In this document: positions 107-5,672 of the stretch, piece by piece | Layout of the letters: the number at the start of each line of letters is the position of its first letter | Position numbering within the stretch: position 1 is the stretch's first letter | Program-made: the position numbers and the translations under genes | Origin: Candidatus Poribacteria bacterium | GTDB taxonomy: Bacteria > Poribacteria > WGA-4E > WGA-3G | Assembly (NCBI GenBank): GCA_009839745.1 | Contig: VXPE01000020.1 | Coordinates: forward strand, 1-50,717 | Direction: 5' to 3' | Length of the DNA stretch: 50,717 nt | Notes under the pieces: model-generated | What the model saw: only the letters and a program-made list of their open reading frames with translations | Told to the model about the DNA's origin: nothing | The model's database searches: none

Positions 107-2881
107 TTAGTTTTCTGCGCGGATTGCCAGCAGACTCTCTGCTTGCTCCTTGGAGAGTTGAATGCCACGAATCATATTAATGGATATGTCTGCGATTTTT
201 TTAATCGCGTGTATCCGTTGCATGTTCGCCAAATCCGCAAGACTACCATCCGTGCTGGCATTCAAGAAAGGTGCGATGAATCGAATGACATCCTTACTTT
301 TTTCGGACTTGATAATATCCTTTGCACAATCGCGTCGGTCACATATCTCACCAAGGGCATAGATGCCATTCTGCTTTACGTCGTTGTCAAGTTCGGTCTG
401 CAATTGGTCAATGAGAATGGAAATAACCGACTCCAATTCCTGAATTGATAGTGGGGTCTCATGCTCACGACTTCCCATTTTTCCAAATGCCCAATTGATA
501 GCAACGCGATCTGTGTCCTCTCCATATTTCATCAAGCGTTTTAGGTGCTCGAGCGCGTTAACACTGTAACAGCACTTTCCAATAGAATACACTGCAATCG
601 GACGGACTGTAGTGGGAATTTCTGGCGTAATGAGGTTAATGAGATGTGATTCCGCACTCGAGAGTCCCGTTTTCCCAATGGTTTTAATGGCGTTTGTAAC
701 AACGTTTTCAATAACTATAGGGTGCATGGACTTAATTTTTTCGGGATGACTCAACGCGGCAGCGGCATCATAAATATCGTAAAGGAGATCTATATCCGAA
801 CACAGGTTCGCTAAGTCTCCCAATAACATTATTGTTTTCCCTCTTCCGTAGTTATTAACGTAATTAATATTGTCAAGCAATGGGCTGATAAAGTCCTCAG
901 CATTTGATGCTTCGATAATTCTGACGTGTTGCCGAGTAATCTGCTCGTCAATTATTCTTTTTCGATTGAATTCACTTGTTTTGATGTACTGTGAGATGTT
1001 CTTCTTCATCACCATGAGTTCAGGGTGCACCTCCAAGATACTGCCCTGTGATTCAGCTGCCGCTTGAGATCCTGACGGAACGAATGGCTGTTTCGCTCCG
1101 GGAATAGATTGCCCCTCTTCTCGCGTATTATCTGTTCGGTCAAATTCGCCCGGATTACGGGTCAACCCATTGGAGGTTTCATCTGCCACAGCAGGTTGGT
1201 TAGGATCTATACTTACTGTAAATTTCTGATCTGGGTCTGCTTTCGGCCAGCCTTCTACGCTCATAATACCGCGTTCGTCCACCTGTACCTGCATAAAGAC
1301 AGGTTCGCCTTTCAAAAGTTGGCGTTGGAACCGAACGGTTCGCTCAAGAATTGGACGATTCGGGGGTTGTGTGTCTTTACCGCTGCCGAGATAAAAAGGG
1401 AGCCTTAACGATCGTGAATTCTCGCTGACGTGTAAATTATCAATCGGTTTAGGCTGTGGCAACGGGAGGATTGTGCCGGCTTCAACAAGCGGTTTCACTT
1501 TGTCACCATCGATTTCAATATTGATCGTATCGTTGACGATGCGCGAAGGTTTAATACCGCGGTGCAAATCATAGTGGTAAACGACTGCCCCGCGTGCCAC
1601 TGCTTTATCTGGATCACCGGCTGTAATCGGCGGAAGACCAAAGAGTGTTTCTAAACGTTTTTGGATCGTATGAAATTTTGTCATCCCACCATTCAGCAGC
1701 ACTGCATCAACATTCGGCACGCTTCCAATTTTCTGTTCAGATTTCCGTAATACATCCAGAATTGGATAGATAATATTATCAGAGTCGGACAATGTATCCA
1801 GTTGATTCACAGCATCTAACGTGAGACTTGGAGCTAGGAGAGGTTCGACGATGTCCTCATATTCAGAAAGTGTCAAATCGTATTGAAATACCTGATTTTC
1901 AAAGGGTGTCTTGATGATTTCGGTTTCGACGAACTCCGGATCAAATGACTTCGGATCCAGATATCCCATTAACGCGCCGTTCTCAATTTCACTGCTTAAG
2001 TCAACTTTGGCTTGCTCAGCATATTCTCGGAATTCGCTTTTGAGCATATTCATCTGAGAATCGTCAAAGTCATTTGGCAATCTGTCTGCATACACCTCCC
2101 AAAAGTGGTCTGCAAGTTTCTGATCGAAATCATCTCCACCGATTTGCGTATAGCGTGATATTGCCAGATCTTCAATGTTCAATGTGTGTTGCTCTTGCTG
2201 GTAGGAAACGTTATGTAAAGAGACATCCAGTGTTCCGCCCCCTAAATCAAAAACCAGAACAGTCTGGGGTTCGTGGAAACTAATGCGTGTCTCTGGAATC
2301 TCGCCCTTGTTTTGTCTGTTAACAAAGTCATACAGTGCAGCACGGGGTTCATCAAGTAGAATATCCCGCGGACTGCCATCATCCTCTTGTGTGCGGAATC
2401 CCGCGAGTCTTGCTGCTTCAATGGTGGCTTCCCGCATGTCAGAATCAAAGGAAGCTGGAACGGTGATAACAACGTCATCAGGTACAAAACCGAATAGAGA
2501 TTCTGCACTGGCAGCGAGATGCGTAAGAATTTGCGATGAAATTACTGCGGGATTGTAGGTACTCCCATCAAAATCAAACGCTGTCTGTGTCCCCATCTCA
2601 CTCTTAATAGACTTCACAACTCGATTTGTCCGACCGATCATCGTTTTGGCGTATTCACCCACAATAGGCGAACCTCCCTCCTTGAAATAGACGCACGACG
2701 GTAACAGTTCTTTTTTCCCTGTTCCACCGCGTTCTATCATCATTCTAACCTCCACGATTTTCGTTTCCAACTGATTTGTTTGTGGGTTAAGAGAACCCCA
2801 TGCCATTACCGAATTGGTAGTTCCTAAGTCAATGCCAATATAATAGTTTCGCCGGTCAGTAGGTTTGATATTAGGTTTCAT
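107..2881 (-). CDS. Hsp70-family chaperone with C-terminal helical (HEAT-like) repeat domain
   Basis: An ATP-dependent chaperone of the DnaK/Hsp70 superfamily, expected in the cytoplasm. The N-terminal actin-like ATPase spans about residues 12-440: phosphate-1 motif IDLGTTNS (17-24), phosphate-2 motif FDLGGGTLDV (211-220) and the NGGM adenosine motif (397-400). A short beta-rich segment (about 445-560) takes the place of a full substrate-binding domain. It is followed by a polar, probably disordered linker (560-615). The rest, to residue 924, is alpha-helical with HEAT-like units rich in IGK, ALGEI and WAFGKMG patterns, instead of the DnaK lid. At 924 residues it is about 290 longer than DnaK. 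The start overlaps the stop of the upstream GrpE-like gene by 4 bp (ATGA), so the two are probably translationally coupled. The family is certain; the client is unknown. Confidence 0.93.
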   Translation of the reverse strand: MKPNIKPTDRRNYYIGIDLGTTNSVMAWGSLNPQTNQLETKIVEVRMMIERGGTGKKELLPSCVYFKEGGSPIVGEYAKTMIGRTNRVVKSIKSEMGTQTAFDFDGSTYNPAVISSQILTHLAASAESLFGFVPDDVVITVPASFDSDMREATIEAARLAGFRTQEDDGSPRDILLDEPRAALYDFVNRQNKGEIPETRISFHEPQTVLVFDLGGGTLDVSLHNVSYQQEQHTLNIEDLAISRYTQIGGDDFDQKLADHFWEVYADRLPNDFDDSQMNMLKSEFREYAEQAKVDLSSEIENGALMGYLDPKSFDPEFVETEIIKTPFENQVFQYDLTLSEYEDIVEPLLAPSLTLDAVNQLDTLSDSDNIIYPILDVLRKSEQKIGSVPNVDAVLLNGGMTKFHTIQKRLETLFGLPPITAGDPDKAVARGAVVYHYDLHRGIKPSRIVNDTINIEIDGDKVKPLVEAGTILPLPQPKPIDNLHVSENSRSLRLPFYLGSGKDTQPPNRPILERTVRFQRQLLKGEPVFMQVQVDERGIMSVEGWPKADPDQKFTVSIDPNQPAVADETSNGLTRNPGEFDRTDNTREEGQSIPGAKQPFVPSGSQAAAESQGSILEVHPELMVMKKNISQYIKTSEFNRKRIIDEQITRQHVRIIEASNAEDFISPLLDNINYVNNYGRGKTIMLLGDLANLCSDIDLLYDIYDAAAALSHPEKIKSMHPIVIENVVTNAIKTIGKTGLSSAESHLINLITPEIPTTVRPIAVYSIGKCCYSVNALEHLKRLMKYGEDTDRVAINWAFGKMGSREHETPLSIQELESVISILIDQLQTELDNDVKQNGIYALGEICDRRDCAKDIIKSEKSKDVIRFIAPFLNASTDGSLADLANMQRIHAIKKIADISINMIRGIQLSKEQAESLLAIRAEN

Positions 2882-4026
2882 GATGTGACCTCCTTGACTT
2901 TAGGTTTAGAAATAAGTGTGTTGCCATAGATCCAACCTGCCGATTGGATTTCAACCGTTTTGCGTTCGTCTGGGTCTTCCCAACTGGACCCTGTGTACTC
3001 ATATTCATCAGATTCACTGAGCGTTATCACTTTTTGCTGACCCACAACTGCTTTAGGACGGATCCCTTGTGCCTTAACAAAGCGGGTAAACATACGGATC
3101 AGAGTGGGAATTAACTCAATGTCTTGCGGGATTTCGGTTCCCTGTTTTTTTAGTTGTCTGACTAATAAATCTGCTTTTAGGAACTGGTCCAGCAAATTAC
3201 TGTGCTGTCCTGAATTCATCTCTTGGAAAAATGTAATGACAACCTCCTGTTTTGCTTCATCTCGGATGTGCTCTATCTCCTCCTGAAGTGCCTCCAGCTG
3301 GTGCTGGGCGATCTCTGCAGCGGCGCGTAGATCGTCGTTTTCATGAGCGATCTGCTCTTGTTCTGAAAAGGATTTGATATTGGCATCATCTATCAATTCA
3401 CTTTCACGCGTTAAAGATTGTATCAGGGATCTAGTTCCTGCGATGCCTCCAATAACTCGCTCGTGTGCGGACTTCTTCTTCACGAATCCCTTTTCTATAG
3501 CGATGAGTTCCACGATCTCCTGCAATAGTGCTTTCGCCTGGTTGAAATTTGCCAACCGGGCAGTCTTCTCCAGCAAAGATTTATAGATAACTGCGTCAGG
3601 GATCTCAGTGCTAAAGACGTAGAGGATCGCCTTATGTGCTAGCCGTGGGCGTCCATCTCCTACAGATTTAACCTGTTCATACAGGGCTCTGCAGTCGTAT
3701 GCGTCTGTGTTTTTGAAGACAAAGTCCTGTAAATCCTGCGCGGTCTGGGTTACCCGTTTTGTCCATTCTATACGTTTTTCCTGCCCCTCGAATCGGTTGC
3801 GCCCGTGAAGTTGATTGTCTTCCAACCAGTGGTCTACACGAAAAGGTAGTTCGCTAACGCCCATATTTTTCTTTACTTGCGTTACCAATTGTGTCGTCGA
3901 ATCTTCGGGGGCGTTGAGGACTGCCCGTATCATCTCTGTACTGTTCGTATGCTTGATTCGGGCCTGACCTTGACTGTTGGCTTTATGATGATATTTCTGT
4001 ATCAATTGGCTGATTTGGTGTTCCAT
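2878..4026 (-). CDS. GrpE-like coiled-coil protein, putative nucleotide-exchange factor for the adjacent Hsp70
   Basis: A 382-residue protein. Residues 1-200 are mostly helical and unrecognised. Residues 225-262 form a charged coiled coil. Residues 265-380 resemble GrpE: a helical stretch (about 270-320, ending in VKAQGIRP) corresponding to the GrpE four-helix bundle, then a small beta head ending in GWIYGNTLISKPKVKEV (364-380), which parallels the GrpE ending GY-x-L-x-x-R-V-I-RPA-x-V-x-V. GrpE releases ADP from Hsp70. The gene's 4-bp overlap with the Hsp70 start supports a partnership. It is roughly twice the length of a normal GrpE, and the N-terminal half could be a client- or scaffold-binding region. 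The GrpE relation is pattern-based and not certain; a generic coiled-coil protein is the alternative. Confidence 0.65.
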   Translation of the reverse strand: MEHQISQLIQKYHHKANSQGQARIKHTNSTEMIRAVLNAPEDSTTQLVTQVKKNMGVSELPFRVDHWLEDNQLHGRNRFEGQEKRIEWTKRVTQTAQDLQDFVFKNTDAYDCRALYEQVKSVGDGRPRLAHKAILYVFSTEIPDAVIYKSLLEKTARLANFNQAKALLQEIVELIAIEKGFVKKKSAHERVIGGIAGTRSLIQSLTRESELIDDANIKSFSEQEQIAHENDDLRAAAEIAQHQLEALQEEIEHIRDEAKQEVVITFFQEMNSGQHSNLLDQFLKADLLVRQLKKQGTEIPQDIELIPTLIRMFTRFVKAQGIRPKAVVGQQKVITLSESDEYEYTGSSWEDPDERKTVEIQSAGWIYGNTLISKPKVKEVTS

Positions 4027-4166: not shown

Positions 4167-5516
4167 TTAGAAATAGATCGGTGTCCCGTTGTTTGCTTGA
4201 TACACTTCTATTCGGTTTTGAAACCGCCGGCATGTCTCTCTATGGATGTTAACAGCGGTTTTATATTGCGGACAACCGTGAACGAAAATAACCTTTTTCG
4301 GGGTTACCCGTTCAATCAGCGAAAGAATCCCTTCACTGCCTGTATGTGCGGAGAGGCGATATGTATCCACGTCTGCATGAGCAGGAATATCTCTCTCATT
4401 GATTCGGAAACGTTGTCCCTTACTCTCATGCAGTCGTTCCAACTTTCGACCTGGGCTTTCCTCGTCGAGGTAACCGCTAAAAAAAACAGCATTTCTCGGG
4501 TCCGGCAGCAGTTCTTCTGCATACCTTGCTGACATACTGTTATCAAGCAACATCCCAGAACTCGCAATGATAACACCATTAAAAGTATCCAAGGCATCAA
4601 TAAAATCTTTGGGGGCCTTCTCAAGTTCATACCCAAACAATTTTACATCATTATCCTCGTAAATATCGCAAGCGATCTGTGCCAGCCCATCAATATAGAT
4701 AGGAAAAGGTTTTAAGTGTCCATCACGAATTAGATCCCGTAGGATTAACGCGAGTTCTTGACTTCTTCCAATAGCAAACGCAGGAATCAAAATTGTTCCG
4801 CCACCATCTAAACAGCGATCAATTTTCTGAGCAAAGTGTTCTCGTTCTTCATCAATATCCCCTACATAAAGGCTTTCTTGATACCCGTATGTTGACTCAG
4901 TAATCAGTAAATCAACATCCAAATCGTCAGGGAGTTGATACTTAGGGACTGTGAGTTGGTCAAACGGAGTAAAGTCACCTGTAAATAGAATATTGCCTGC
5001 ATCGGATTCTATGTAAACCATGGATGCTCCAAGGATATGACCCGCAGGAAAAAAAGTGATTTGACACGTTTCACACGTAATTGGAGAATGCCATGCTATC
5101 GGCGTAATATTTTCAATTGCGCGTTGAACCCTCAGGGCATTGAATGCTTTAACTCTCGGAAAATCAACCAATTCCTCACGACTAAAAGTCGCGGAAGTTA
5201 AAGATTGATTCAGTTGTAGGTCTACAATCTCTCGCGTCGGTAAAGTTGCATACATCGGGACATCCTGTGCTTCCTCAACAACAAACGGTAACGCACCGAT
5301 ATGATCAATATGTCCATGGGAAAGTAGGATTCCATCCAACTCCCATAAACCATCAAGGAGATTTTCAAGATAAAGCGAATGAAAGCGTGGATATATAGAG
5401 TCAGTGTGCAAACGAATGCCCGCATCTAAAAGGAACTTCGCTCCATTTAACTGAATAAAATAACAACTCGCGCCGATTTCGTTACCGCCACCGACTGGAA
5501 AAAAGAGGTTGCGCAT
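4167..5516 (-). CDS. Beta-CASP metallo-beta-lactamase RNase (CPSF73-like)
   Basis: A zinc-dependent nuclease of the metallo-beta-lactamase/beta-CASP family, which processes RNA in related proteins. Signatures appear in order: the N-terminal strand motif GGGNEIGASCYFI; motif 2 SHGHIDHIG (HxHxDH metal site); motif 3 His in FPAGHILGAS; motif 4 Asp in LFTGDFTP; the beta-CASP motif A acid in LLITESTYG; PAFAIGRSQE; motif B in IPAHADVD; and motif C His in VIFVHG. The frame stays open upstream to 5639, but those 41 residues match nothing in the family. The ATG at 5516 begins MRNLFFPVGGGNEIG, the normal N-terminus, so it is preferred. About 450 residues is typical. It may share a transcript with the GrpE-like and Hsp70 genes (140-bp gap holding a palindrome). 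Confidence 0.88.
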   Translation of the reverse strand: MRNLFFPVGGGNEIGASCYFIQLNGAKFLLDAGIRLHTDSIYPRFHSLYLENLLDGLWELDGILLSHGHIDHIGALPFVVEEAQDVPMYATLPTREIVDLQLNQSLTSATFSREELVDFPRVKAFNALRVQRAIENITPIAWHSPITCETCQITFFPAGHILGASMVYIESDAGNILFTGDFTPFDQLTVPKYQLPDDLDVDLLITESTYGYQESLYVGDIDEEREHFAQKIDRCLDGGGTILIPAFAIGRSQELALILRDLIRDGHLKPFPIYIDGLAQIACDIYEDNDVKLFGYELEKAPKDFIDALDTFNGVIIASSGMLLDNSMSARYAEELLPDPRNAVFFSGYLDEESPGRKLERLHESKGQRFRINERDIPAHADVDTYRLSAHTGSEGILSLIERVTPKKVIFVHGCPQYKTAVNIHRETCRRFQNRIEVYQANNGTPIYF

Positions 5517-5672
5517 ATCTCTAATAAGCGTTGGCACTTCAAAGTAGTTTTGGGATTGGTTAAAATGGGTATAACAAATTATTTTACAATGGCTGTCTAC
5601 TTGATAGACTATGGTACCTGACAGTAAGGAAAAAGTCAAGTTTTTTGTGATCTCTGGGACTTATACACATTT

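Follow-up and report, generated by a model that had tools for sequence, protein, structure and literature searches.

A HEAT-tailed Hsp70, its GrpE-like partner and a beta-CASP nuclease: a candidate mobile defence module in Poribacteria

Hsp70 proteins fused to HEAT repeats are known from the CoCoNuT type IV systems, in which these proteins, named CnuD, accompany McrB and McrC; the Walker A-like motifs of the CoCoNuT Hsp70s are reported to be degenerate, and GrpE goes unmentioned in the main text (PMC11090510). Dedicated neighbouring Hsp70 and GrpE genes have been described in the GTPase-centred GAP1-N2 conflict loci, in an article whose main text does not contain the term "MBL" (metallo-beta-lactamase) and mentions no beta-CASP nuclease (PMC7159879). 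Here we describe a locus with features of both in a 50,717-nucleotide stretch of Candidatus Poribacteria DNA (GenBank assembly GCA_009839745.1, contig VXPE01000020.1), contig C20 in the genome bin of this sponge-type bacterium; the stretch is called the window below. It encodes an Hsp70 with a HEAT tail, a GrpE-like protein and a beta-CASP nuclease.

The module resembles CoCoNuT in joining the nucleotide-binding domain (NBD) and substrate-binding domain (SBD) of Hsp70 to HEAT-like repeats in a nuclease-bearing locus, CnuD being compared by architecture only, but its Hsp70 ATPase motifs are intact and it has neither the McrB GTPase nor McrC; neither was found in the module or in that part of the flanking open reading frames (ORFs) that was scanned. 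It shares with the GAP1-N2 systems the adjacent, dedicated Hsp70 and GrpE and the setting of a predicted conflict locus, but a beta-CASP nuclease takes the place of the GTPase, of which Pfam found none in the module, and no FNIII/DnaJ protein was found. Pairs of GrpE and Hsp70 in conflict loci are known already; their combination with a beta-CASP nuclease we did not find described in the openly accessible literature searched. The features of the locus are as follows.

107 to 2881, minus strand: Hsp70 with a HEAT tail, 924 amino acids (Pfam HSP70, ATPase residues, HEAT evidence).
110 to 1036, minus strand: HEAT solenoid in place of the Hsp70 helical lid (alphaRep matches, HEAT_2 in 8 of 8 orthologues, separate HEAT gene on plasmids).
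2878 to 2881, minus strand: ATGA stop/start overlap of the GrpE-like and Hsp70 genes (sequence; kept in six relatives).
2878 to 4026, minus strand: gene for the GrpE-like protein, 382 amino acids (ORF, motif, AlphaFold2 model, Foldseek, profile).
2887 to 3063, minus strand: GrpE-type beta domain, residues 322–380 (AlphaFold2 topology; GW...P.V..V motif).
2888 to 2895, minus strand: Shine-Dalgarno sequence AAGGAGGT of the Hsp70 gene (sequence; within the final codons of the GrpE-like gene).
3067 to 3366, minus strand: coiled-coil long helix and bundle helices, residues 221–320 of the GrpE-like protein (AlphaFold2).
3388 to 4026, minus strand: exchangeable N-terminal helical domain, residues 1–213 of the GrpE-like protein, proposed as sensor (identity drop, saturated synonymous sites).
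4167 to 5516, minus strand: beta-CASP metallo-beta-lactamase nuclease, 449 amino acids (Pfam domains, invariant ligands).
Hsp70 by residues: NBD about 12–440; reduced SBD-beta about 445–565; linker; HEAT solenoid about 616–924.

The three genes form one unit. The Hsp70 ATG is preceded at 6 nt by the perfect Shine-Dalgarno sequence inside the upstream GrpE-like gene, each of the six relatives whose junction is intact keeps the ATGA overlap, and the nuclease gene lies 140 bp upstream of the GrpE-like gene on the same strand. Of 85 Poribacteria genomes, the same 8 contain both the GrpE-like gene and the HEAT-Hsp70, and none has only one of them. A close nuclease (69–91% identity) adjoins the pair at each of the six Poribacteria loci, the window's included, where the contig extends far enough; relatives of about 35% identity are widespread and stand separately. 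The window genome also encodes a normal DnaK (contig C11) and GrpE (contig C65), so the HEAT-Hsp70 and its GrpE-like partner are an extra set.

An earlier sequence-only reading of the window had placed two ORFs correctly (107–2881, minus strand, 924 amino acids, and 2878–4026, minus strand, 382 amino acids, overlapping by ATGA) and had taken them for a dedicated pair. The coupling of the two and their linkage across the 85 genomes bear this out, but the unit is in fact a trio, the nuclease gene at 4167–5516 having been overlooked. That no J-domain gene adjoins the pair is correct for the visible sequence, which ends at the contig edge about 106 bp beyond the Hsp70 gene.

The Hsp70 matches Pfam HSP70 with E = 1.3e-43, the match ending near position 529 of 599. 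Both IGIDLGTTNS and FDLGGGTLDV are present, and alignment to DnaK of the same genome shows that the phosphate motifs and the catalytic K, E, D, and T residues of the NBD are kept; in the same alignment, the hydrophobic LLLD-type interdomain linker of DnaK is not conserved. No helical lid follows the SBD-beta, and a HEAT solenoid stands there: HEAT_2 is matched over the last ~310 residues in 8 of 8 orthologues (best 4e-7), and a profile of the tail finds artificial HEAT-like alphaRep proteins with E = 1.4e-10. In three relatives (L028, L029, and L031), the Hsp70 carries about 200 extra residues at its N-terminus, which give E = 0.0035–0.037 against Pfam EVE in all three cases and weakly resemble the N-termini of McrB-like ATPases (tblastn 5e-3), one of which adjoins mcrC. 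As a separate observation, the Hsp70 frame is in two overlapping pieces on the Klebsiella plasmid (L020, 8989–10772) and in G053 (L032, 550–3241). A common split site was rejected, since the two frames break at different positions, one of them at an A run; we treat them as decayed or mis-sequenced.

The 382-residue protein has the motif GWIYGNTLISKPKVKEV in its last residues, after a coiled coil, and the pattern GW...P.V..V is common to it and its Priestia and Klebsiella plasmid counterparts. It has no match to Pfam GrpE (PF01025), and comparison of its full-length profile with the GrpE profile fails, the signal being confined to the C-terminal region. There, the last 162 residues together with the Priestia and Klebsiella homologues reach E = 4.5e-4 and a score of 32 against the GrpE profile; none of 200 column shuffles attains this score (highest 20.3), and the reversed alignment scores 13. 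The margin over unrelated coiled coils, which score 24–26, is modest, and the beta part alone scores 18.3 against at most 17.7 across 200 shuffles. The AlphaFold model has the topology of GrpE, with a long helix (residues 221–270), a pair of bundle helices and then a beta domain (322–379), and shows pLDDT of ~66–87 from residue 280 on, ~80–87 in the beta domain, and 48–64 in the coiled coil. When this model was compared with 350,542 PDB chains by Foldseek, only GrpE chains exceeded a probability of 0.5 among the matches listed (9blt_B, 0.89; 9a81_A, 0.80; 9bls_B, 0.77); the best E-value was 0.098, none was below 0.05, and TM-scores of the full model were low. It is thus well supported by model and profile that the C-terminal third is GrpE-like, with nucleotide exchange as its predicted activity. 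The N-terminal 213 residues are helical and have no GrpE counterpart.

On both proteins, the sequence-only reading has held up. The ATPase motifs are kept as it said, the exchange of the lid for HEAT-like residues is confirmed over the last ~310 residues (HEAT_2, alphaRep), and the GrpE-like C-terminus it proposed is borne out by predicted structure and profile, the listed structural matches above a probability of 0.5 being GrpE. Because the C-terminus is GrpE-like on both counts and the genes are never apart, no ground for abandoning that proposal arose. Its description of a specialised chaperone module is apt as to the dedicated partners and altered architecture but too narrow, because the unit includes the nuclease gene, the likely effector. 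Measured against canonical DnaK/GrpE, the module shares the motifs and catalytic residues of the Hsp70 NBD and, in its GrpE-like protein, the coiled coil, helix bundle, and beta domain of the GrpE type. It differs in the HEAT solenoid in place of the lid, the linker that is not conserved, the unrelated N-terminal 213 residues of the GrpE-like protein, its coupling with a nuclease in one operon, and its patchy, mobile occurrence.

The N-terminal part of the GrpE-like protein has been exchanged. We compared the window operon with that of the relative G081 (L027) and found that the nuclease and Hsp70 genes are mostly 77–99% identical in nucleotide sequence, whereas identity is 55–65% over the intergenic gap and the GrpE-like gene as far as approximately codon 213, past which it climbs again. 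Synonymous divergence (pS) is 0.75 and 0.69 in this block and 0.16–0.44 elsewhere. Because synonymous sites are near saturation in that block only, we attribute the difference to recombinational replacement, and accelerated evolution as the sole cause of the N-terminal divergence was rejected on the same ground. The swapped part would be the sensor of the module.

The nuclease matches Lactamase_B (3.5e-16), Beta-Casp (2e-14), and RMMBL (2e-7) of Pfam, and its catalytic motifs are intact, HxHxDH and the other metal ligands being invariant. Its ORF opens at 5639; the orthologues begin at Met 42. The nearest kin are beta-CASP enzymes of the aCPSF1/CPSF type. Like aCPSF1 and Cas14 of type VII CRISPR, the nuclease has MBL, beta-CASP, and RMMBL domains with catalytic ligands, but it is shorter than both, and its scores, 195 and 176 bits, fall short of the respective cut-offs, 580 and 800. 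The plasmid-borne nucleases (L020, 4894–5900; L019, 5618–6150) carry N-terminal extensions of about 185–350 amino acids, which the Poribacteria nuclease does not have.

The module is mobile. The four-gene order MBL, GrpE-like, Hsp70, HEAT is found on a Priestia megaterium plasmid and a Klebsiella grimontii plasmid, next to integrase, HNH, restriction, and DprA genes. Because the plasmids keep HEAT as a separate gene, the window Hsp70 looks like a fusion of Hsp70 and HEAT; the HEAT part of the window and the plasmid HEAT proteins are too diverged for a significant alignment. A contig scan with the window Hsp70 gave matches in Poribacteria only, no similar DNA was found in E. coli genomes, and other plasmid relatives of the MBL gene (Herpetosiphon, Deinococcus, Nostoc, and Crinalium) come without Hsp70.

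Four relatives carry the module in the interval between the genes for homocysteine methyltransferase and DegT aminotransferase. Among 54 genomes with both anchor genes on one contig, the gap between them is 0.5–1.5 kb in 46, the window genome included; the other eight spots hold this module (4), a different Hsp70 module (2; G080 and G061), a BglII-like pair (1), and small genes (1; G054). The BglII-like pair, in G076, is a type II restriction-modification system made up of a restriction enzyme and its methylase. The module has another location in G081, G043, and the window genome. Because of this behaviour of the variable spot, we regard the module as a mobile, defence-like cassette. The occupants in question, the Hsp70 + FGE-type module or the BglII-like restriction-modification pair, can be seen at L080 (1080–6812), L081 (1170–5853), and L083 (2051–3605).

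Other arrangements of GrpE and Hsp70 were seen as well. The sequence-only reading had taken the known GrpE partners to be housekeeping genes that stand apart, which is too strong, as dedicated pairs occur in other Poribacteria and in the GTPase-centred conflict loci (PMC7159879). In Poribacteria, GrpE is followed by Hsp70 at L062 (5236–7600, G070), L063 (5144–8500, G046), L064 (6547–8989, G047), and L065 (7768–10020, G049). Neighbours of the L064 pair have FGE-sulfatase domains, one of them also with a caspase (Peptidase_C14) and a PEGA domain, and the four pairs seem to represent another chaperone module of conflict type. At L066 (7619–10289, G011), a small J-domain-like gene, GrpE, and Hsp70 stand in a tight row, apart from the main GrpE of G011. 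At L060 (6397–8823) and L061 (6890–10798), a GrpE domain lies within proteins of 808 and 1302 amino acids, whose start looks by eye like a UvrD-type helicase; such a fusion is unusual.

We propose, with a probability of roughly 0.55, that the three genes make up one mobile defence-like system, in which an exchange factor with a swappable sensor would gate a complex of Hsp70-HEAT and nuclease. The conflict-system reading is suggested by the exchange of the first ~213 codons in the GrpE-like gene, together with the occupation of the same spot by restriction-modification or another Hsp70 module. Also in its favour are the strict co-occurrence of the GrpE-like and HEAT-Hsp70 genes, the adjacent nuclease, the plasmid copies beside integrase and restriction genes, the intact Hsp70 ATPase residues, and the weak EVE-like and McrB-like similarity of the extra domain in three relatives. 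The CPSF73/aCPSF1-type beta-CASP nuclease would be the effector, and the Hsp70, with its HEAT solenoid in place of the lid, would hold or gate it. The GrpE-like C-terminus would drive or reset the nucleotide switch of Hsp70; binding of an invader-derived trigger by the N-terminal half would promote ADP release, and the resulting conformational change of Hsp70-HEAT would release or activate the nuclease, with anti-phage or anti-plasmid defence as the outcome. More tentatively, the module may represent a novel type of immunity that uses the nucleotide cycle of Hsp70 as its switch, with a private GrpE-type factor, bearing a recombined sensor, that activates a beta-CASP nuclease through the Hsp70-HEAT arm.

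Several observations weigh against a defence system. The module did not turn up in viral contigs scanned with the GrpE-like, Hsp70, and MBL alignments, no PADLOC model fits, and metabolic genes flank the module at several loci. The restriction-modification occupant of the spot is a single case, and the GrpE E-values are modest on their own. The extra domain of the three relatives stays below threshold for EVE (14.5–17.8 bits, cut-off 23), and its EVE-like identity is only a lead because the AlphaFold model failed (pLDDT 34.6) and was not used.

The strongest competitor, which we still consider unlikely, is a cellular machine for RNA processing or RNA quality control, in which a HEAT scaffold holds the beta-CASP RNase, much as CPSF73 pairs with symplekin, a HEAT protein, and the Integrator nucleases pair with HEAT subunits; Hsp70/GrpE would power assembly or substrate release by nucleotide turnover. 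The kinship of the nuclease with the aCPSF1/CPSF type agrees with this, the optional EVE-like domain would fit modified RNA as well as DNA, and the partnership of HEAT and beta-CASP proteins is established for CPSF73 and symplekin (PMC10688271). However, core RNA processing is usually less patchy than a module that only 8 of 85 genomes contain, that sits at various sites and on plasmids, and that has a swapped domain.

It is less likely again that the locus encodes a specialised stress chaperone for particular clients, perhaps the nuclease, in which the HEAT tail would clamp the client and the GrpE-like protein would serve as private exchange factor. The intact ATPase motifs, the reduced SBD-beta, the dedicated exchange factor, and the other Hsp70-GrpE pairs of the phylum are consistent with such a chaperone, but it leaves the conserved active site of the nuclease, the mobility, and the half-swapped exchange factor unexplained. 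Least probable is that the C-terminus encoded by the 2878 gene is an unrelated coiled coil with a small beta domain merely resembling GrpE, since the failed Pfam and full-length comparisons, the scores of 24–26 for unrelated coiled coils against 32 and the lack of a Foldseek E below 0.05 are outweighed by the listed PDB matches above 0.5 being GrpE throughout, the shuffle result, the GrpE order of helices and beta domain, and the fixed place of the gene beside Hsp70.

Hsp70 proteins recur in predicted bacterial defence loci, where their role is not known. The defence-like module described here is a complete minimal set, consisting of an ATPase-competent Hsp70, its own exchange factor, whose front half is swapped like a specificity subunit, and an intact nuclease, and it allows a direct test of whether a chaperone cycle can gate an effector.

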